Source: Pyruvatibacter sp. HU-CL02332 (GTDB lineage: Bacteria; Pseudomonadota; Alphaproteobacteria; CGMCC-115125). Taken from it: 64,000 nucleotides of DNA. The translations under genes and the position numbers were made by a program. Shown one piece after another: positions 8,493-35,222 of this stretch (position 1 is the first letter of the stretch; each line of letters begins with the position of its first letter). The notes below the pieces were generated by a model that was not told the origin of the DNA, made no database searches, and worked only from the letters and a program-made list of their open reading frames with translations. The stretch spans positions 2,147,501 to 2,211,500 of the forward strand of contig NZ_BAABWK010000001.1 in assembly GCF_040362765.1 (NCBI RefSeq). The letters are read 5' to 3'.

Positions 8493-10970
8493 ATGGCACC
8501 CGATATTGTAGATATGCCCCAGCGGCAAAAGCTGGTGATTGTCGGCAACGGCATGGCACCGGGCCGAATGCTTGAGGAACTGCTCAAGCGCTCACCGCGC
8601 GCGTATGACATCACCATCTTCAACGCAGAGCCGCGCGTGAACTACGACCGCATCATGCTGTCGCCGGTCCTGTCGGCTGAAAAGACGTTTGAAGACATCA
8701 TCATCCACGATGATGACTGGTACGCCGCCAACGACATTACCTTGCACAAGGGCAAGCGCGTGGCGCGCATTGACCGTGATGCGAAAGTTGTCGAGGCGGA
8801 AGATGGCACGGCGGCCTCCTATGATCGCCTCGTACTGGCAACCGGATCATCACCCTTCATCATTCCGGTACCCGGCCATGATCTGCCCGGCGTGCTGGCC
8901 TATCGCGATCTGGATGACGTGGACGCCATGGTTGAGGCCGCTGAACATGGCGGCAAGGCAGTCGTCATCGGCGGTGGGCTGCTTGGCCTCGAAGCTGCGG
9001 CAGGGCTGCAGATGCGCGGCATGGACGTCACGGTCATCCACCTCATGCCAACCCTGATGGAGCGTCAGCTCGATACGGCAGCTGGGCACCTGCTGCGCCA
9101 GGCGGTGGAAGCCCGCGGCATCAAGGTCCTGACGGAAGCCAACACCCAGTCAATCACTGAAAAAGACGGCAAGGTTGCTGGCGTTCAAATTGAAGATGGT
9201 CGGCTTCTGCCAGCGGACATCGTGGTGATGGCCGTTGGTATCAAACCCAGCAGCGGCATTGCGAAAGACGCGGGCCTGACCGTCGGTCGTGGTATCAGCG
9301 TAGATGACACTCTCTGCACCTCAGACCCAGCCGTATCGGCTGTTGGCGAATGTGTTGAGCATCGCGGCATGTGCTACGGGCTGGTGGCACCTCTTTATGA
9401 GATGGCCAAAACCCTCGCAGCCAATCTCGCCGGCGAAGAAGCGTCCTACACGGGCTCTGTAACCTCAACGAAACTCAAGGTCACCGGCATCAACCTCTTC
9501 TCCGCCGGGGATTTTGCCGATGCGGAAGGACGCGAAGAGATCGTGTTACGGGATGCCTCGAACGGCGTCTATCGACGGCTTGTTCTGGAGGACAACCGCA
9601 TCGTTGGTGCTGTGCTGTACGGCGATGTGGCGGATGGCGCCTGGTTCTTTGACCTGATCAAGCGCAGCACTGACATCTCAGAAATGCGCGACACAGTGAT
9701 CTTCGGTCAGGGCTTTGCAGGGGGTACCCCCCTGGACCCTACGGCGGCCGTTGCAGCCTTGCCGGATGATGGCGAGATCTGTGGCTGTAACGGCATTTGC
9801 AAAGGTACGATTGTCGAGGCAATTGGCGAACTGGGCCTGAAAGACGTCGAAGGCGTGCGCATGCACACCAAGGCATCCGCCTCTTGCGGCTCATGCACCG
9901 GACTGGTGGAGCAGCTGCTGACCCTGTCACTGGGAGATGACTATGACCCCGCCGGTGTGCCGCCCATGTGTGGCTGCACGGATCTTGGACATGGTGATGT
10001 GCGCCGCCTGATTGTTGCGAAGAACCTCAAGACCATTCCTGATGTGATGCAGGAACTGGAATGGACGTCATCATGCGGCTGCGCCAAATGCCGTCCGGCA
10101 CTCAATTACTATCTGCTGGCCACATGGCCGGGTGAATATACGGACGACAACCAGTCCCGCTTCATCAACGAACGGGTGCACGCCAACATCCAAAAGGATG
10201 GCACTTACTCCGTGGTCCCCCGCATGTGGGGCGGCATCACAAGTGCTGATGAGCTGCGCGCCATTGCGGACGTGACAGACAAGTTCAATGTGCCCACGGT
10301 GAAAGTCACCGGCGGCCAGCGTATCGACCTTCTGGGCATCCAGAAGGAAGACCTGCCGGCAGTCTGGGCAGACTTGAATGCTGCCGGTCTTGTGTCCGGT
10401 CATGCCTATGGCAAGGCCTTGCGCACCGTCAAAACATGCGTCGGCACGGACTGGTGCCGCTTTGGAACGCAGGACTCAACAGGCTTTGGCATCCGCATAG
10501 AAAAATTCATGTGGGGCTCATGGACGCCAGCGAAAGTGAAGATGGCCGTATCCGGCTGTCCACGTAACTGCTCTGAAGCGACCTGCAAGGACGTTGGCGT
10601 CATCTGTGTGGACTCGGGATACGAAATTCACTTCGCAGGCGCTGCCGGGCTGGAGATCAAGGGTACCGTTGTTCTGGGACACGCCTCCACCGAAGACGAA
10701 GCTCTGGAAATCATTGTCGCGGTGACGCAGCTCTACCGTGAGCAGGCTTACTATCTTGAGCGCATCCATAAATGGGCGGCCCGTGTTGGTGTCGACACGG
10801 TGCGTGAGCAGATCATGGATGATGTCGAACGGCGCAAGGCCCTGTTCGAGCGGTTCTGCTACTCACAGAAATTTTCGCAGATCGACCCATGGGCAGAACG
10901 CGTCCAGGGCGATCAGGCGCATGAGTTCATGCCTCTGGCTGATCTCACGCGCATGCAGGCAGCGGAGTAA
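8493..10970 (+). CDS. nirB: Assimilatory NAD(P)H nitrite reductase large subunit
   Basis: This 825-residue enzyme reduces nitrite to ammonium in the cytoplasm. In order it has: an FAD/NAD(P) reductase domain (about 10-320, with a GNGMAPG dinucleotide turn and a second at VVIGGGLLGLE); BFD-like [2Fe-2S] segments (CGCNGICKG and SCGSC, about 430-475); a second CGC...CGCAKC region (about 490-535); and the siroheme/4Fe-4S half-domains. The cluster ligands are complete: CVGTDWC (C-x5-C, near 649) and CPRNC (C-x3-C, near 689). AAGGAG precedes the ATG. NirD follows after 5 bp, and CobA at the operon end supplies siroheme precursor. Confidence 0.96.
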   Translation: MAPDIVDMPQRQKLVIVGNGMAPGRMLEELLKRSPRAYDITIFNAEPRVNYDRIMLSPVLSAEKTFEDIIIHDDDWYAANDITLHKGKRVARIDRDAKVVEAEDGTAASYDRLVLATGSSPFIIPVPGHDLPGVLAYRDLDDVDAMVEAAEHGGKAVVIGGGLLGLEAAAGLQMRGMDVTVIHLMPTLMERQLDTAAGHLLRQAVEARGIKVLTEANTQSITEKDGKVAGVQIEDGRLLPADIVVMAVGIKPSSGIAKDAGLTVGRGISVDDTLCTSDPAVSAVGECVEHRGMCYGLVAPLYEMAKTLAANLAGEEASYTGSVTSTKLKVTGINLFSAGDFADAEGREEIVLRDASNGVYRRLVLEDNRIVGAVLYGDVADGAWFFDLIKRSTDISEMRDTVIFGQGFAGGTPLDPTAAVAALPDDGEICGCNGICKGTIVEAIGELGLKDVEGVRMHTKASASCGSCTGLVEQLLTLSLGDDYDPAGVPPMCGCTDLGHGDVRRLIVAKNLKTIPDVMQELEWTSSCGCAKCRPALNYYLLATWPGEYTDDNQSRFINERVHANIQKDGTYSVVPRMWGGITSADELRAIADVTDKFNVPTVKVTGGQRIDLLGIQKEDLPAVWADLNAAGLVSGHAYGKALRTVKTCVGTDWCRFGTQDSTGFGIRIEKFMWGSWTPAKVKMAVSGCPRNCSEATCKDVGVICVDSGYEIHFAGAAGLEIKGTVVLGHASTEDEALEIIVAVTQLYREQAYYLERIHKWAARVGVDTVREQIMDDVERRKALFERFCYSQKFSQIDPWAERVQGDQAHEFMPLADLTRMQAAE

Positions 10971-24979: not shown

Positions 24980-25078
24980 TGTCTGATTGTCCCCCAAGTC
25001 AGCCAGCCCAGGGTGACACCCCGGACACTTACAATCCGGCGGCCCAGCGCCTCCGGTACTGCGCCGGGTCTCTCACAA

Positions 25079-25125
25079 TTGCGAGTCAATTGCAATAAAT
25101 ATGCGAGTAGTTATCAATTGCGACT
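25079..25125. promoter_or_regulatory. Fur-like palindromes upstream of the imelysin operon
   Basis: TTGCGAGTCAATTGCAA (25079-25095) pairs at 6 of 8 positions about a central base. A second CAATTGCGACT (25115-25125) repeats one half-site. The region is AT-rich within GC-rich DNA and lies about 100 bases upstream of the outer-membrane gene at 24979. Similar TTGCxA-type palindromes bind Fur or Irr in alphaproteobacteria. The rest of the 326-base gap 24980-25305 holds the repeat at 25197 and nothing else I can name. Confidence 0.5.
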
Positions 25126-25196
25126 AAGTGAAGCAGATAGGGCTGAGGCGGCTAAGCGCTTATGAACAAAGACCTATTGCGACATCACCTTTTGGC

Positions 25197-25231
25197 GCCT
25201 AAAGTGCGTAGTTGATATCCGCACTTTAGGC
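25197..25231. promoter_or_regulatory. Perfect 12 bp inverted repeat upstream of the isomerase-like gene
   Basis: GCCTAAAGTGCG (25197-25208) and CGCACTTTAGGC (25220-25231) are perfectly complementary with an 11-base spacer. No T-run follows on either strand, so it is not an intrinsic terminator. It lies 75 bases before the start at 25306 and is likely an operator or a 5' UTR hairpin for that operon. Confidence 0.55.
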
Positions 25232-25305
25232 GGGTGGTCAGTTAAACGATCGGCAGTCCAAACTGTCGGCATGTCCGCAGAAACGGGCACATGGGGGATA
25301 TGACT

Positions 25306-25788
25306 ATGACCAGCTATCAGCGCCTATTGGTGCAACACGGATTGATCATCCTGTTCTTGGGCCTTGTCGGCGGCTTCATGCTTCTGTTTGCCGTACTTGG
25401 TCAGATATCCCTGTCGCCGATACCGCTGGCATTTGGCTATGTCATTCCAGGTGAGCCTGCCCAGTGGCGAGCTGTCCATGTGGGCAACATCATGAATGGG
25501 CTCATGGCCATTATCTTTGCCCTGTTGATTCCCTTGCTCACCCTGAGTGAGAGGGCGACGCGCAACATCGCCATTGGTCTGGTGTGCACCATCTGGGGCA
25601 ACGCCCTGTTCTACATCTTTGGCATTCTGACCCCGAACAAGGGCTTGTCTTTGGGCGACAATCCCGTGGGCGAGGCCAACTGGGCGGCACCCATCGCTTT
25701 CATGCCCGCCTTCATTGTAGCCTTTGTGCTGATGGTGATTGTCGTTGTCATGCTGCGGAACCTGCCTGCTGCTGACGACACCAAGTAG
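25306..25788 (+). CDS. Styrene oxide isomerase-like four-helix membrane protein
   Basis: This 160-residue integral membrane protein has four hydrophobic helices. From memory it aligns without gaps to styrene oxide isomerase (StyC): GHG-like start, W54, H58, N64-G, P76, W97, N99, FY at 102-103, PNKGLSLG for PNRGLTFG, and N119/G122. H58, N64 and Y103, which I recall as heme- or substrate-site residues of the isomerase, are all kept; Asp95 is Thr here. I chose the ATG at 25306 because GGGGGA lies 8 bases upstream. The di-iron-type gene follows after 37 bp. The substrate is unknown, and no styrene genes are present. Confidence 0.72.
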   Translation: MTSYQRLLVQHGLIILFLGLVGGFMLLFAVLGQISLSPIPLAFGYVIPGEPAQWRAVHVGNIMNGLMAIIFALLIPLLTLSERATRNIAIGLVCTIWGNALFYIFGILTPNKGLSLGDNPVGEANWAAPIAFMPAFIVAFVLMVIVVVMLRNLPAADDTK

Positions 25789-25825
25789 TAACGGCGTACG
25801 GTTCAACCCTGTCCGGAGAGACGCA

Positions 25826-26743
25826 ATGTCTGCGCACCAAACTGAAACCCTGAGCGATGCAGAACACCCGATGGATAACATCATCGTCAGGCCGCTTGAT
25901 TTCGAAGTCGAAAAGCTTGAACCGTCACGGGTCGTGTGGAGCGATACGTCACCGGAATTCGCCATCTACCTCAACGCTTTCGGTGTCCATGTGCCGTATT
26001 TCGAGCGCTATCTCATCCGCTCTATGTCCACGGCCAAAAAGCACGTGACCAACGAGCAGCTCCGAGCAGACATGAGCGCAATCACAGGTCAGGAAGCGCA
26101 CCACGCAAAGAACTTCCTTGTCTTCAACAAGGTGCTGGCGGATCGCTATCCCCGTGTGTCCGAGCTTGATAAACGCGCGCGGAAATACTTCACCGAACAC
26201 GCCAAGACCGACCCCCTGAAAAAGCTTGTCGGCTTCACAGCCGGCTACGAGACGTTCACGTTTCTCGCCGGGATGATCATCCTCGCCAACTACGAAAAGT
26301 GGATGAAGGACTCAGATCCCGCCATCAAGGCCCTGTGGGTCTGGCACCAGGTGGAAGAAGTAGAACACGGCGCGGTGGCCTTCGAGGTCTACAAGGAACT
26401 GTTTGGAGATGATGAGTGGTACCGCAAATACATGATCCTCATCGCGCTCATCCATATCGGTAAAGAAGCGCTGGCAGCCTATTTCCATATGGCCAAAGTC
26501 GAAGGGTATTTCAAAAATCCCGTCAGCGCCGTGAAGGCCACATGGTTTGTCTTCGCCACCTTCGGGCAGATGGTCTGGCATTCCCTGCCAACCTTCTCGC
26601 GCAGCTACCATCCGCGGGTGCACCCGCTGGCCACAACCAAGCAAAACAAAATTGCGGTTGCATGGCGGCGCTATCTCAAGAAGGGTGGGGATGTCCTGAC
26701 AATCGACCGGGCCAAGATGAAAGAGATCATCGGCTTTGGTTGA
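25826..26743 (+). CDS. PF10118-type protein with a ferritin-like di-iron ligand set
   Basis: This 305-residue protein is annotated in databases as a predicted metal-dependent hydrolase (PF10118). The sequence shows a carboxylate di-iron pattern on four helices: E60 (YFER), E90-x2-H93 (QEAHH), E142 (YETFT) and E178-x2-H181 (EEVEH). This layout is typical of di-iron oxygenases and desaturases rather than hydrolases. GGAGAG precedes the ATG at 25826. The partner gene upstream encodes an epoxide-isomerase-like membrane protein, so an oxidation step feeding an isomerisation step is conceivable. The function is not proven for this family. Confidence 0.8.
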   Translation: MSAHQTETLSDAEHPMDNIIVRPLDFEVEKLEPSRVVWSDTSPEFAIYLNAFGVHVPYFERYLIRSMSTAKKHVTNEQLRADMSAITGQEAHHAKNFLVFNKVLADRYPRVSELDKRARKYFTEHAKTDPLKKLVGFTAGYETFTFLAGMIILANYEKWMKDSDPAIKALWVWHQVEEVEHGAVAFEVYKELFGDDEWYRKYMILIALIHIGKEALAAYFHMAKVEGYFKNPVSAVKATWFVFATFGQMVWHSLPTFSRSYHPRVHPLATTKQNKIAVAWRRYLKKGGDVLTIDRAKMKEIIGFG

Positions 26744-27840: not shown

Positions 27841-28551
27841 ATGTTTGCTGACTACTTAGAAAAGCTGGGCAACGCTGCCAATGAGAGCCAGGAGGTTCTT
27901 GTTTGGTCTGACGCTATGTCTGACCTTGGCTTTGACAAACATATGTACGGCATCCGGGCTCAGGAGGCTGGGCGGGTCAACGAGCATCTCGTTGAAAGCA
28001 CAACTTTCACGGAAGACTGGTTGTCAGCATATTATGGCGGACTGCACAAGGACGATCCTGTCGTTGCGCACTCCACGGTCCATCCACTTCCCTTTATCTG
28101 GACTGATTGTCCAATTGATACGCCGGAGCAGCGGGACTTCATGTCGAACGCGGCAGATGCCGGACTGAAATACGGCATCAGTGCACCGCTGATTGTCGGA
28201 AGTGGATATGAAGGTGCTGTTTCTGTCAGTGGCGACAGCAATGCAGATCTGCGCGAACACCTGATGGCCATCTACTCAATGACCTGTGCAATGCACGTGT
28301 TGCGGGTCAAAAACTGGTCACGGGATACGCTCAAGGCATTCAAGCTGACGGCCCGCGAACAGGAAGTGATGCGCTGGATTGCAGCTGGCAAGGATGACTG
28401 GACGATTGGCTCCATCCTCGGCATCAGCGAAAACGGCGTCCACTACCACAAGAAGAATATCTTCCGGAAACTTCAGCTCAGCAGCAGGGTTGCCGTTGCG
28501 GCGGTAGCGCAGAAAACCGGGATTGCGGATGCCAACTACCGGTTCTGGTAG
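27841..28551 (+). CDS. LuxR-family quorum-sensing regulator
   Basis: This 236-residue regulator has an N-terminal autoinducer-binding domain (about 15-160). The usual ligand-pocket residues W60, Y64, D72-P73 and W87 are present. A C-terminal LuxR helix-turn-helix (about 172-232) follows, with LTAREQEVMRWIAAGK and the recognition helix near ISENGVHYHKKNI. The invariant Glu and Gly of the HTH domain are kept. The luxI gene follows after 54 bp on the same strand, so the two form a cognate pair. Confidence 0.9.
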   Translation: MFADYLEKLGNAANESQEVLVWSDAMSDLGFDKHMYGIRAQEAGRVNEHLVESTTFTEDWLSAYYGGLHKDDPVVAHSTVHPLPFIWTDCPIDTPEQRDFMSNAADAGLKYGISAPLIVGSGYEGAVSVSGDSNADLREHLMAIYSMTCAMHVLRVKNWSRDTLKAFKLTAREQEVMRWIAAGKDDWTIGSILGISENGVHYHKKNIFRKLQLSSRVAVAAVAQKTGIADANYRFW

Positions 28552-28605
28552 GTCCCAAATCTGATGTGATTCGACATGCTCATGCTCCAAGTCGGGAGTG
28601 TGTAC

Positions 28606-29277
28606 ATGATTTACGAATTTGCCTTAGCCCAGCGCTGCGCCGCGCCTTTCCCTCACGAAGAAATCCACGCATCCATGCATCGGTTGCGCCACGCGCTCTA
28701 TCGCCAGGGTGCTGACTGGTCTGTGCCCGAGCACCTGGGCATGGAGTATGACGAATTCGACACCATGACTGCGCGTTATCTGGTGGGCATTGACGAGACC
28801 GGGACGGTTCGTGCGCAAAGCCGCATGATTACCTGCGACCGGCCTTACATGCTGGCCCAGCTCTGGCCGGAGCTGGCGCAGTCCGTGCCGCTACCTCGCA
28901 GTGCCGCTGATGCCGAAGGCTCGCGCACCGGCGTTGATGTAACCCTGCCAGTTGAGGAATACCGTCGGTGGTTCTTCAAGCTCCTGATCGCAAATGTTGA
29001 ATGGGCCGTAAGCAATGGCGTTGATCGTCTGAGCTTTGTCACCTATCAGCGCGTCGCTGAAAAATCGATGGAGGGCGCGGGCCTGTCGGTCACCTATTAC
29101 GGCCCCACCATGTCCTTCCCCGATGGCCGGTTTATTGCGGGCTCCTTCCCCGTGAGCACACGCCTTGCCCATGACCTTCGCCGCAGGCACGGCATCGAAG
29201 GTCAGGTGTTTGTGCCATTGCCGAATGCTACTCCGCTACCCGCTGTCGCTCAGGAGGCTCATCATGAGGTCGCATAG
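28606..29277 (+). CDS. LuxI-family acyl-homoserine lactone synthase
   Basis: This 223-residue autoinducer synthase keeps the LuxI catalytic residues with exact family spacing: R28, W38, E47, D49, D52, R73, E104 and R107. The only change is Y32 in place of the usual Phe. I chose the ATG at 28606 because GGGAG sits about 7 bases upstream; two upstream ATGs have no such site. The acyl chain made cannot be read from sequence. It overlaps a 76-codon ORF by 14 bp. Confidence 0.92.
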   Translation: MIYEFALAQRCAAPFPHEEIHASMHRLRHALYRQGADWSVPEHLGMEYDEFDTMTARYLVGIDETGTVRAQSRMITCDRPYMLAQLWPELAQSVPLPRSAADAEGSRTGVDVTLPVEEYRRWFFKLLIANVEWAVSNGVDRLSFVTYQRVAEKSMEGAGLSVTYYGPTMSFPDGRFIAGSFPVSTRLAHDLRRRHGIEGQVFVPLPNATPLPAVAQEAHHEVA

Positions 29278-32681: not shown

Positions 32682-34220
32682 ATGCCGGATACAGCAACAC
32701 TCGACAAACCTGCGGCCAAATCAGGTGCCAAGGCTCAACATTTTGACGTGCTGGTCGTCGGCGCAGGGATTTCCGGCGTCGGTGCGGCGTACCACCTGCA
32801 GGACCAGTGCCCGGGCATGAGCTATGTGGTGCTGGAAGCGCTGGAGGATTTCGGCGGCACATGGCTGATGCACAAATATCCCGGCATCCGCTCAGACAGT
32901 GACCTGTATACCTTCGGCTATCGCTTCAAACCGTGGACCGGCAACCCCATCGCCACGGCGGAAGAAATCCGCACTTACATGGATGAAGTGATCCAGGAAA
33001 ACGATCTCAAGCGCCATATCCGCTACCAGCACAAGATCCTGTCGGCTGACTGGTCCGACGCAGACAATCTGTGGACCATTCACGCCACACGCACCGACAC
33101 CAACGAGGATCTCGTCTTCACCTGCGGCTTCCTGTGGATGTGTCAGGGCTACTACCGCCACTCGGAAGGCTACACGCCGGACTGGCAGGACATGGACAAG
33201 TTCAAGGGTGACATTGTTCACCCGCAGACCTGGCCGGAAAATTACGACTACAAAGGCAAGAAGGTTATTGTGATTGGCTCCGGCGCCACCACGGCCACCA
33301 TCGTGCCGGCCATGGCCCCGGACTGCGAGCACATCACTGTGCTGCAACGCTCCCCCACCTATTTCGTACCTGGCCGGAACGAGAATGAAGTCGCGGACAT
33401 GCTGCGGCTGCTGGAGATCGACGAAGAGTGGATCCACGAAATCACCCGCAAGGCAGTGCTCTACAATCAGGCCGAGCTGACGCGGCGCTCCTTTGAAGAG
33501 CCGGAGGTCGTGAAACAGGAACTGATCGACGGCGTGAAAGAACTGCTGCCCGACGGCTATGACGTCGACAAGCACTTCACGCCCAAATACCGCCCCTGGC
33601 GCCAGCGCGTGGCCTTTGTACCCGACGGCGATCTCTTCGCAGGCATCAAGGCCGGCAAGGCCAGCATGGTGACCGACGAGATTGAGCGCTTTACCGAAAA
33701 AGGCATCCTGCTCAAATCCGGCGAAGAGCTTGAAGCCGACCTTATTGTCACGGCCACAGGCTTCAACCTGTGTGCGCTGGGCGACATCGCGTTTTCCCGC
33801 AACGGCGAAGACATCAACTTCAATGAGACCGTTACCTATCGCGGCATGATGTTCACCGGCATGCCCAACATGGTGTGGGTGTTTGGCTACTTCCGCGCCA
33901 GCTGGACACTGCGTGTGGACATGGTCGCCGATTTTGTCTGCCGCCTGCTGAAGAAGATGCGGCAAAAGGGGGCCAAGAAGGTCGAGGTGGCACTCAGGCC
34001 GGAAGACAAGGACATGCCGATCCTCGACTGGATCGACACCGAAAACTTCAACCCAGGCTACATCATGCGCAACATGCATCTGTTGCCCAAACGCGGCGAC
34101 AAGCCCGAATGGCAGCACAACCAGGACTACTGGACGGAACGCAAGGAATTCCCCGACATTGACCTGGATGATGCGGCCTTCGTCTATACTCAGGCAGATC
34201 AGATATCAGACGTCGCCTGA
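32682..34220 (+). CDS. Baeyer-Villiger monooxygenase (FAD/NADPH, EthA-like)
   Basis: This 512-residue flavoprotein monooxygenase has the FAD motif GAGISG at 27-32 and the NADPH motif GSGATTA near 198. The diagnostic Baeyer-Villiger fingerprint F-x-G-x3-H-x3-W-P is complete (F174, G176, H180, W184, P185). It converts ketones to esters or lactones, or oxidises sulfides. The closest recalled relatives are EthA-type enzymes. An alpha/beta hydrolase and an MFS transporter follow, consistent with ester hydrolysis after oxygenation. The natural substrate is unknown. Confidence 0.9.
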   Translation: MPDTATLDKPAAKSGAKAQHFDVLVVGAGISGVGAAYHLQDQCPGMSYVVLEALEDFGGTWLMHKYPGIRSDSDLYTFGYRFKPWTGNPIATAEEIRTYMDEVIQENDLKRHIRYQHKILSADWSDADNLWTIHATRTDTNEDLVFTCGFLWMCQGYYRHSEGYTPDWQDMDKFKGDIVHPQTWPENYDYKGKKVIVIGSGATTATIVPAMAPDCEHITVLQRSPTYFVPGRNENEVADMLRLLEIDEEWIHEITRKAVLYNQAELTRRSFEEPEVVKQELIDGVKELLPDGYDVDKHFTPKYRPWRQRVAFVPDGDLFAGIKAGKASMVTDEIERFTEKGILLKSGEELEADLIVTATGFNLCALGDIAFSRNGEDINFNETVTYRGMMFTGMPNMVWVFGYFRASWTLRVDMVADFVCRLLKKMRQKGAKKVEVALRPEDKDMPILDWIDTENFNPGYIMRNMHLLPKRGDKPEWQHNQDYWTERKEFPDIDLDDAAFVYTQADQISDVA

Positions 34221-34250
34221 CGCCCTATCGGGATCAATCCGGAACGTGGT

Positions 34251-34300
34251 AATCACTCGGCCAGCTTGCATGTGCAGGCTGATAGTCCAACCGAGTGATT
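34251..34300 (+). other. Intergenic hairpin between the monooxygenase and hydrolase genes
   Basis: AATCACTCGG (34251-34260) and CCGAGTGATT (34291-34300) are a perfect 10 bp inverted repeat. Between them CAGCTTGCA pairs with TGCAGGCTG (34262-34281, one wobble). No T-run follows, so it is not a standard terminator. It ends 10 bases before the hydrolase ATG and could block that ribosome-binding site, stabilise the upstream mRNA, or bind a regulator. Confidence 0.5.
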
Positions 34301-34310
34301 GCTGCTGCTT

Positions 34311-35222
34311 ATGTCTGATGTTCCGACCCACCATTTCTTCGACGCGACCGATGCCCGCATTTCCTATTGGGAATGGGGCGACCCCGCGGGTCAGCCGATC
34401 CTGCTGATCCATGCGACCGGATTTCATGCCCGTGTGTGGGATGAAACAATTGCGCGCCTGCCCAAGAGCTACCGCATTATCTCCGTTGATATGCGCGGCC
34501 ACGGCCAAAGCGAAAAGAAGGGCCTGCTGCTCGACTGGTCACTGGTCGCAAAGGATGTGGGTGAACTGGTTGATCACCTCGCCCTGACAAACGTCATCGG
34601 CGCGGGTCACTCCATGGGCGGACACTGCTTAACGCAAGTCGCCCGGGCCCGCCCACAGATGTTTGAGCGGCTGCTGCTGATTGATCCGGTCATGCTGGCG
34701 CCGGCGAACTATGAGAGCAGTCCCTACAATGACATGACGGACCCATCGGAGCACATGGTTGCCCGCCGCCGCGACGCGTGGACCGGCTGGGAGGAAATGT
34801 ACGATCGCTTCAAGGACCGGCATCCTTATTCCTTGTGGAAGCCACAGGCGCTGGAAGACTATTGCCGCCATGGCATTCGCCCCAATGAGGAGGGCGAGGG
34901 CTATCGCCTGGCATGTCCGCCGGTCATGGAAGCATCCGTCTACATGGGCAGCGTCAACGCCAATTTGACCGGCACGCTCAAGGAAATGACGCTGCCTGTC
35001 ACCATTCTGCGTGCAAAGGGCCGCGAACCCGGCGACGAGCCAGTGATGGATTTTGCCCTCTCGCCCACATGGGACCAGTTGTACAAGGAGTTTGGCAATG
35101 CGCGCGATGTATCGCTGCCGCATCTCAGCCACTTTATCCCCATGCAGGATCCCGCATTGACGGCGCATTTCATTTTGAATGCCCAGGCATCAGCTGATGA
35201 GGCGGTCGCTGCCGCAAAATGA
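34311..35222 (+). CDS. Alpha/beta hydrolase
   Basis: This 303-residue alpha/beta hydrolase has an oxyanion segment LLIHATGFHARVW, the nucleophile elbow GHSMGG (Ser near 107), and a C-terminal HLSHFIPMQDP supplying the catalytic His. I chose the ATG at 34311 over an in-frame TTG at 34299, which overlaps the hairpin. Its 4 bp overlap with the MFS gene shows one operon. Following a Baeyer-Villiger enzyme, it likely cleaves the ester or lactone product. Confidence 0.87.
   Translation: MSDVPTHHFFDATDARISYWEWGDPAGQPILLIHATGFHARVWDETIARLPKSYRIISVDMRGHGQSEKKGLLLDWSLVAKDVGELVDHLALTNVIGAGHSMGGHCLTQVARARPQMFERLLLIDPVMLAPANYESSPYNDMTDPSEHMVARRRDAWTGWEEMYDRFKDRHPYSLWKPQALEDYCRHGIRPNEEGEGYRLACPPVMEASVYMGSVNANLTGTLKEMTLPVTILRAKGREPGDEPVMDFALSPTWDQLYKEFGNARDVSLPHLSHFIPMQDPALTAHFILNAQASADEAVAAAK

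Follow-up and report, generated by a model that had tools for sequence, protein, structure and literature searches.

We describe a pair of adjacent genes in Pyruvatibacter sp. HU-CL02332, one for a membrane protein related to styrene oxide isomerase (SOI) and one for a protein of the Pfam family PF10118, that recurs in several bacterial groups and that we judge to have roughly an even chance of being a two-step oxidation module, in which the PF10118 protein would convert an alkene to an epoxide and the SOI-like protein would convert the epoxide to a carbonyl compound. The pair lies in a stretch of 64,000 nucleotides, called the window here (Table 1). Such a two-gene module had been put forward in a sequence-only reading of this DNA, and the co-occurrence of the two families, the SOI fold with its haem histidine and the complete ligand set in a ferritin-like fold all speak for it, while we infer the binding of metal and haem, each of the two reactions (the epoxidase role included), the sequence of the steps and the identity of the substrate from the gene pairing, the predicted folds, the ligand and catalytic residues and the matched PF10118 subfamilies.

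Table 1. The gene pair, its surroundings and the second pair of the same genome (window positions unless a contig or locus is named).
Feature	Position	Strand	Description
SOI-like (styrene-oxide-isomerase-like) gene, gene 1	25306..25788	+	160 aa; ATG 25306, stop 25788
PF10118 gene, gene 2	25826..26743	+	305 aa; ATG 25826, stop 26743
Possible ribosome-binding site GGAGAG	25815..25820	+	5 nt before gene 2 ATG, read from sequence
Perfect 13-bp inverted repeat, 11-nt spacer	25196..25232	.	~75 bp before gene 1; core partly kept in two congeners
Repeated CAATTGCGA boxes	25076-25123		ahead of gene 1; retained in part in two congeners
LuxR/LuxI-type quorum-sensing pair	27841-29274		PF03472+GerE, PF00765; shortly downstream of the pair, past the PAP2 gene
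Second PF10118 + SOI-like pair	G000:C1 1949752-1951175 (L005 ~8749-10238)		opposite gene order to window pair; frames overlap

The protein of gene 1 matches the solved SOIs with phmmer E-values of 3.7e-19 (30tw) and 8.9e-18 (8pnu), and scores 103.4 bits against the NCBIfam StyC model NF045734, under its 150-bit cut-off. As the sequence-only reading had stated, H58, N64, N99 and Y103 are kept and align with the same SOI residues, but the alignment is not gap-free as it had claimed, since the phmmer alignments contain one-residue gaps. In excerpts from PMC11374702, haem b of SOI is bound by H58, the N99A and Y103A mutants are inactive, N64A and D95A are impaired, the substrate takes the sixth haem coordination site and a carbocation intermediate is argued for; in the Rhodococcus opacus SOI the equivalent histidine is likewise essential (excerpt from PMC12502698). 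The network residue D95 is T95 in the gene 1 protein, and none of the 73 aligned SOI-superfamily rows has D at that column, the sole column invariant across all 73 being H58. The predicted model (mean pLDDT 96.1) has the four-helix SOI fold and superposes on 8pnu with Z 21.1 and an rmsd of 1.6 Å over 155 residues (Foldseek E 5e-10), so that the structural comparison with StyC bears out the fold with the haem histidine H58 retained. The next structural matches of the model after SOI were quinol nitric oxide reductase and LTC4 synthase (Z ~10, 4-4.7 Å), and the SOI fold may be remotely related to bundles of the MAPEG or haem-copper type, matches of this kind being weak for a helical protein; SOI has no substantial DALI match according to an excerpt from PMC11374702.

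Gene 2 scores 146 bits against PF10118 (Metal_hydrol; Pfam gathering cut-off 33.2). Taken alone, the Pfam description would make its product a metal-dependent hydrolase acting on an ester or an epoxide next to the isomerase, a reading that we hold to be extremely improbable: the protein's predicted fold and ligand set point to the ferritin-like di-iron redox proteins, and in the portion of the open-licence PMC literature that our searches returned, PF10118 appears only in connection with lanthipeptide proteases and COG3687 does not appear. The di-iron set proposed earlier is present in full (E60, E90xxH93, E142, E178xxH181), but it was incomplete, the invariant H174 having been overlooked, and the candidate di-iron ligands thus number seven: E60, E90, H93, E142, H174, E178 and H181. 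All seven are invariant in the 67 rows of alignment A8, which holds the SOI-linked clade, and all seven also occur in 21/21 unlinked PF10118 frames (20 loci); all seven may bind metal. As a sequence pattern, the order of these candidate ligands (E, ExxH, E, HxxxExxH) is shared with the N-oxygenases AurF, CmlI and AzoC, as is a ferritin-like fold in the predicted model. For the AurF-type AzoC, excerpts from PMC6783550 and PMC8840469 give the iron ligands as E102, E137, H140, E198, H225, E229 and H232, assigned from a homology model and alanine scanning, and H174-x3-E178-x2-H181 of gene 2 is spaced like AzoC H225-x3-E229-x2-H232. The likeness has its bounds: in the AzoC motif EX28-37DEXXH the Asp before ExxH is replaced in gene 2 by Gln in the first instance and by Glu in the second, no sequence similarity between gene 2 and these enzymes was seen among the PDB matches listed to E 10, and no arylamine context is known for PF10118.

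The model of the gene 2 protein (pLDDT 92.8) has a ferritin-like fold, and its matches include RNR R2 (Z 12.9, 4.4 Å, 228 residues aligned), the sMMO hydroxylase (Z 12.7, 4.5 Å, 221), R2lox (Z 12.4), CmlI (Z 12.1, 5.3 Å, 234) and AurF (Z 12.0, 4.7 Å, 229), with rmsd values of 4.2-5.3 Å across the ferritin-like dimetal matches. These Z values of 12-13 amount to a tie, since the oxygenases are not separated from RNR R2, and they would be weak alone for helical bundles. When the profile of alignment A8 was compared with PDB sequences, no di-iron chain was among the matches listed to E 10, and these matches thus gave no sequence-profile link from PF10118 to solved di-iron proteins, the ones listed (alpha-actinin, eIF3 subunit E, lipase A) looking like chance.

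The absence of the two families' co-occurrence elsewhere had been set beforehand as a refuting test of the module; what the survey found was recurrent pairing. It covered 385 genomes of the class, a sample drawn irrespective of linkage, and scored only the best first-look candidates per genome (at most 9 in the SOI search), so that matches may be missed and 'unlinked' means unlinked as far as seen. PF10118 exceeded its cut-off in at least 34 of the 385 genomes and the SOI superfamily was found in at least 25. Among the 44 SOI-superfamily matches, 21 lay within 1 kb of a PF10118 match, against about 0.10 expected (65 PF10118 matches, best candidates per genome), and chance adjacency is thus rejected; the 21 cases are spread over 16 of the 25 genomes with an SOI match and over 7 family groups. 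This count leaves out 12 sub-cut-off PF10118 matches, includes the two weakest SOI matches, and does not contain the pair on G045:C14, probably because 6 of the 11 PF10118 candidates were scored there. PF10118 was present in 20/25 genomes with an SOI-like gene and in 14/360 without one (Fisher p 5e-20, a value that overstates independence, as the genomes are related to varying degree). In a phylum-wide sample, 8 of 398 genomes matched and just 3 (G000, G045 and G661) did so above 40 bits, which makes that sample uninformative on linkage.

Gene 2 was aligned with four relatives, and a scan of genome contigs with this alignment yielded 71 loci, whose hosts are, by their record titles, alpha-, beta- and gammaproteobacteria and Myxococcales, and the idea that the pair is peculiar to this genome can be rejected. 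On the fetched DNA, 65/71 of these loci carry an SOI-superfamily gene; as the loci were fetched via gene 2, they give no estimate of SOI-like genes without PF10118, for which the class-wide SOI search serves. The genome of L121 and L122 and that of L131, whose loci lack an SOI-like gene nearby, have one elsewhere (that of L131 with an internal stop), and for L141, L181 and L182 (3/71 loci, the gene-2 matches of the last two being partial) none was found in the genome. Measured between stop-to-stop frames rather than from called starts, and with one 30-bit SOI frame of L115 left out, the distance from an SOI-like open frame to the PF10118 frame is at most 300 bp in 59 of 67 cases and 1-4 kb in the other 8. 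Relative to PF10118, the SOI-like frame is downstream in 42 of the 59, upstream, as in the window, in 5, and divergent in 12; gene order varies while the pairing stays, so that the link exceeds inherited synteny.

Pairing does not by itself fix the order of the two steps. It could be envisioned that the epoxide on which the SOI-like protein works is produced elsewhere or imported, and that the di-iron protein acts later, on the carbonyl compound by oxygenation or deformylation, or at another position. The PF10118 gene does come first, on the same strand, in 42/67 (an order reversed in the window), and the aldehyde-deformylating ferritin-like protein 6d9f is among the fold matches. We nevertheless consider this order of events unlikely: no other oxygenase family is widely recurrent beside the pair, FMO-like genes being found in 3 loci and Rieske-like and PhyH-like clusters, recognized by eye, in at least 5 loci each among the matches listed, and the fate of an aldehyde is already explained in some loci by an aldehyde dehydrogenase and an acyl-CoA ligase.

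The PF10118 proteins fall into subfamilies that match the state of their partners. W54, H58, N64, W97, N99 and Y103 are all intact in 63/67 SOI-like frames from the gene-2 loci; of the remaining four, the letter at Y103 cannot be read in the first, a contig end truncates the second, and the other two, extra copies in L115 and L129, have lost both N99 and Y103. The extra copy in L129 adjoins a PF10118 gene of the other subfamily, and that in L115 adjoins one read as two frames. This second PF10118 gene of L115 (7774-8838) consists of two separate open frames, possibly a broken gene or a sequencing error. On the PF10118 side, all 67 A8 rows share H210, L63 and G140, which the 21 unlinked frames lack, while F59, Y141, F144 and Q175, which adjoin ligand positions in sequence, distinguish 57 type-1 from 10 type-2 rows. 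Should the SOI-linked clade be a new class of alkene epoxidases, as considered below, then L63, G140 and the set F59/Y141/F144/Q175, all next to ligand positions in sequence, together with H210, which is specific to the clade, would determine the substrate or serve in docking to the partner.

Trees were built from subsets of 81 SOI-superfamily and 71 PF10118 rows by a quick method, with SH-aLRT as the only support measure and midpoint roots. In the PF10118 tree, the 20 rows without a detected adjacent SOI-like gene form one clade (SH-aLRT 100) and the other 51, including all that are SOI-linked, form a second (SH-aLRT 100). Within the latter, a single change separates the 31 labelled members whose partner has kept the signature from the 14 whose partner has lost it (45 labelled in all), and the genomes of its unlinked members L041 and L043 have an SOI-like gene on another contig. 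The SOI-superfamily tree divides into halves of 62 and 19 rows, and here the signature needs two changes: in the larger half, L079, L080, L082 and L091 have lost N99 and kept Y103. The PF10118 partners of L079, L080 and L082 are of type 2, while these three SOI-like rows themselves lie in the other half of the SOI tree, so that the two trees are not fully congruent, and partner exchange or a separate loss must, on these trees, have occurred.

The own genome contains one further SOI-like gene (26% identity) and one further PF10118 gene, which are also adjacent to each other. The second SOI-like protein keeps the haem histidine, with N64, N99 and Y103 changed to Q, F and A, and this pair probably has a function different from that of the window pair. 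By eye, a divergently oriented gene next to it resembles a TetR regulator. Type-2 pairs in general have lost N99 and Y103, or N99 alone, and pairing is thus not always dependent on the full SOI chemistry; such partners, which keep the haem histidine but not N99, point to a second step akin to that of the other pairs yet not the same. They are also the strongest argument for the view that the SOI-like protein is no isomerase but a haem-b protein that anchors its di-iron partner at the membrane or gives it electrons. For that role count the invariance of H58 in 73/73 rows, the loss of N99 and mostly of Y103 in type-2 pairs, that of the own genome included, and the electrons that a di-iron oxygenase requires. 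We find it quite unlikely all the same, given that N64, N99 and Y103 are intact in nearly all frames at loci of its gene-2 subfamily (the 63/67 above), that in the enzyme matched by the fold the substrate binds at the sixth coordination position of the haem, and that ferredoxins occur near a few pairs.

The two solved SOIs form, with L104 and L105, a starred clade of 4 within the larger half, and L104 lies ~1.5 kb from a StyA match; the window protein falls in a different starred set of 21 rows, apart from the solved SOIs. The sequence-only reading had also seen no styrene monooxygenase or phenylacetate genes nearby, and this extends to the whole own genome, where PF17885 (styrene monooxygenase) and PF05138 (PaaA/PaaC) had no match at E <= 0.001. 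A mislabelled styrene cluster is ruled out by the absence of StyA and PaaA/C from the genome and by the separate tree branch, and by score, D95, clade and context the gene 1 protein is not a StyC member. One genome of the survey, G171 (L104, L183 and L185), has an apparent styrene cluster (StyA, an SOI-like gene and PaaA/C on contig C17) and also PF10118-linked and orphan SOI-like genes, so that these paralogues coexist. Linkage to PF10118 is seen in both halves of the SOI tree, also among the class-sample rows alone, and may be ancestral, the tree being unrooted. It is a possible but tentative extension that the SOI-linked PF10118 clade is a new class of di-iron alkene epoxidases and that the SOI superfamily arose as its isomerase partner. 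If true, the SOIs of styrene degraders would be a derived branch that swapped a di-iron oxygenase for the flavin monooxygenase StyAB.

Neighbouring genes vary around the 71 loci. They were called with a crude coding-score gene caller and counted as near (within 3 kb of the pair) or far (3-8 kb). The families were selected once they had been noticed beside the pair, and the hosts are partly related, so that p-values for such neighbours are descriptive only. The near/far counts were 9/0 for acyl-CoA ligase, 9/0 for an AlkS/MalT-type regulator, 6/1 for 2Fe-2S ferredoxin, 4/0 for TonB receptors, 2/0 each for FMO-like genes and 3-hydroxyacyl-CoA dehydrogenase, and 1/0 for OmpW, with no enrichment near the pair for aldehyde dehydrogenase (3/2), SDR (4/5) or enoyl-CoA hydratase (1/4). 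An aldehyde dehydrogenase frame lies directly 3' of the SOI-like gene in L120, L124 and L129; regulator, SOI-like gene, PF10118 gene, aldehyde dehydrogenase and ligase occur together in L120, L126 and L129; and OmpW-family porins are found in L114 and L126. The aldehyde dehydrogenase, acyl-CoA ligase, ferredoxin or AlkS/MalT-type regulator genes of some relatives are of the kinds required for a route from alkene to acid. Beside the window pair there is no gene for a ferredoxin, an aldehyde dehydrogenase or a ligase, and just 15/71 loci have one or more of the five types aldehyde dehydrogenase, ligase, AlkS/MalT-type regulator, ferredoxin and OmpW. The label AlkS-like rests on domain make-up, the nearest NCBIfam model being MalT, under its cut-off; AlkS itself is a LuxR/MalT-family activator responsive to alkanes (excerpt from PMC8784404).

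In 56/71 loci the fetched DNA, some of it from short contigs, shows none of these five types of catabolic or regulatory neighbour. This would fit a pair whose task is the detoxification or repair of epoxides or peroxides of endogenous lipids, quinones or isoprenoids, and not growth on alkenes. Many hosts of the 71 loci, moreover, are marine bacteria for which we know of no hydrocarbon degradation. This role appears very unlikely to us, as in several hosts the genes next to the pair (acyl-CoA ligase, AlkS/MalT-type regulators, OmpW porins) agree with uptake and catabolism. In the alk operon of alkane degraders, AlkS controls alkBFGHJKL, and some PF10118 loci resemble it in having an AlkS/MalT-type regulator, an OmpW-family porin, an aldehyde dehydrogenase, an acyl-CoA ligase and a small iron-sulphur protein. 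In these loci the AlkB alkane hydroxylase is replaced by PF10118 and the SOI-like isomerase, and the iron-sulphur protein is a ferredoxin and not a rubredoxin.

Putting the epoxidation first, as we prefer, the following pathway can be hypothesized. As a ferritin-like di-iron oxygenase whose seven-ligand site is of the AurF type, the PF10118 protein would receive electrons from a ferredoxin or another reductase and would add one oxygen atom of O2 to a hydrophobic alkene to form the epoxide. Its SOI-like partner, probably a membrane trimer, would hold haem b via H58; the ferric haem would serve as a Lewis acid, with Y103, N99 and N64 surrounding the substrate oxygen, and the epoxide would be rearranged to an aldehyde or ketone in a Meinwald reaction. 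Aldehyde dehydrogenase and acyl-CoA ligase, present in the same cluster in a few relatives, could then pass the product to acyl-CoA metabolism. The carbocation route argued for SOI favours substrates able to stabilise a cation, so that aryl-substituted, conjugated or branched alkenes are more probable than plain 1-alkenes. Candidatus Phaeomarinobacter was described from brown-alga cultures (excerpt from PMC4110880); a guess for an algal associate would be the unsaturated hydrocarbons or isoprenoids of algae.

The closest known arrangement is the styrene pathway of StyAB and StyC (8pnu, PMC11374702), which likewise joins an oxygenase to an isomerase of the SOI fold with H58, N64, N99 and Y103. 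It differs in that its oxygenase is the flavin monooxygenase StyAB, in place of which the window has a candidate di-iron PF10118 protein, in that the window protein has D95 replaced, sits on a separate tree branch and scores below the StyC-model cut-off, and in that StyA and PaaA/C were not found in the window's genome. The pair would thus work like an oxygenase with SOI, but with gene 1 outside StyC and gene 2 from a family for which we found no function. Another likeness is to PaaABCE, a ferritin-like di-iron epoxidase followed by the isomerase PaaG, which resembles the proposed pair in that order; PaaABCE acts on a CoA thioester and PaaG is soluble and haem-free, unlike the proposed pair. 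In the open-licence PMC literature, judged by title or the start of the abstract among the matches listed, we found no paper on the pairing of SOI-like and PF10118 genes, and searches of the same literature returned no paper joining 'styrene oxide isomerase' with 'metal-dependent hydrolase' or 'epoxide isomerase' with 'di-iron'.

PF10118 bears a hydrolase label, with no experimental function found, and its tie to an enzyme of known chemistry gives it a testable job. If the proposed module is real, it would place a di-iron route of aerobic alkene oxidation beside the flavin routes, in marine and hydrocarbon-degrading bacteria, hint at the origin of styrene oxide isomerase, and offer a coupled alkene-to-aldehyde pair for biocatalysis.

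In the window itself, genes 1 and 2 are on the same strand with 37 nt between them, a gap that would fit a two-gene operon. The inverted repeat and the repeated boxes upstream of gene 1 are possible, if weak, candidate operators, and a promoter scan gave nothing above chance. The pair is flanked by a porin gene on the opposite strand on one side and by PAP2, LuxR and LuxI genes on the other. Further along, at 32682-35219, a gene that by eye is flavin-monooxygenase-like is followed by an alpha/beta-hydrolase-like gene, and one window gene clusters with the FMO-like genes of L123 and L166.
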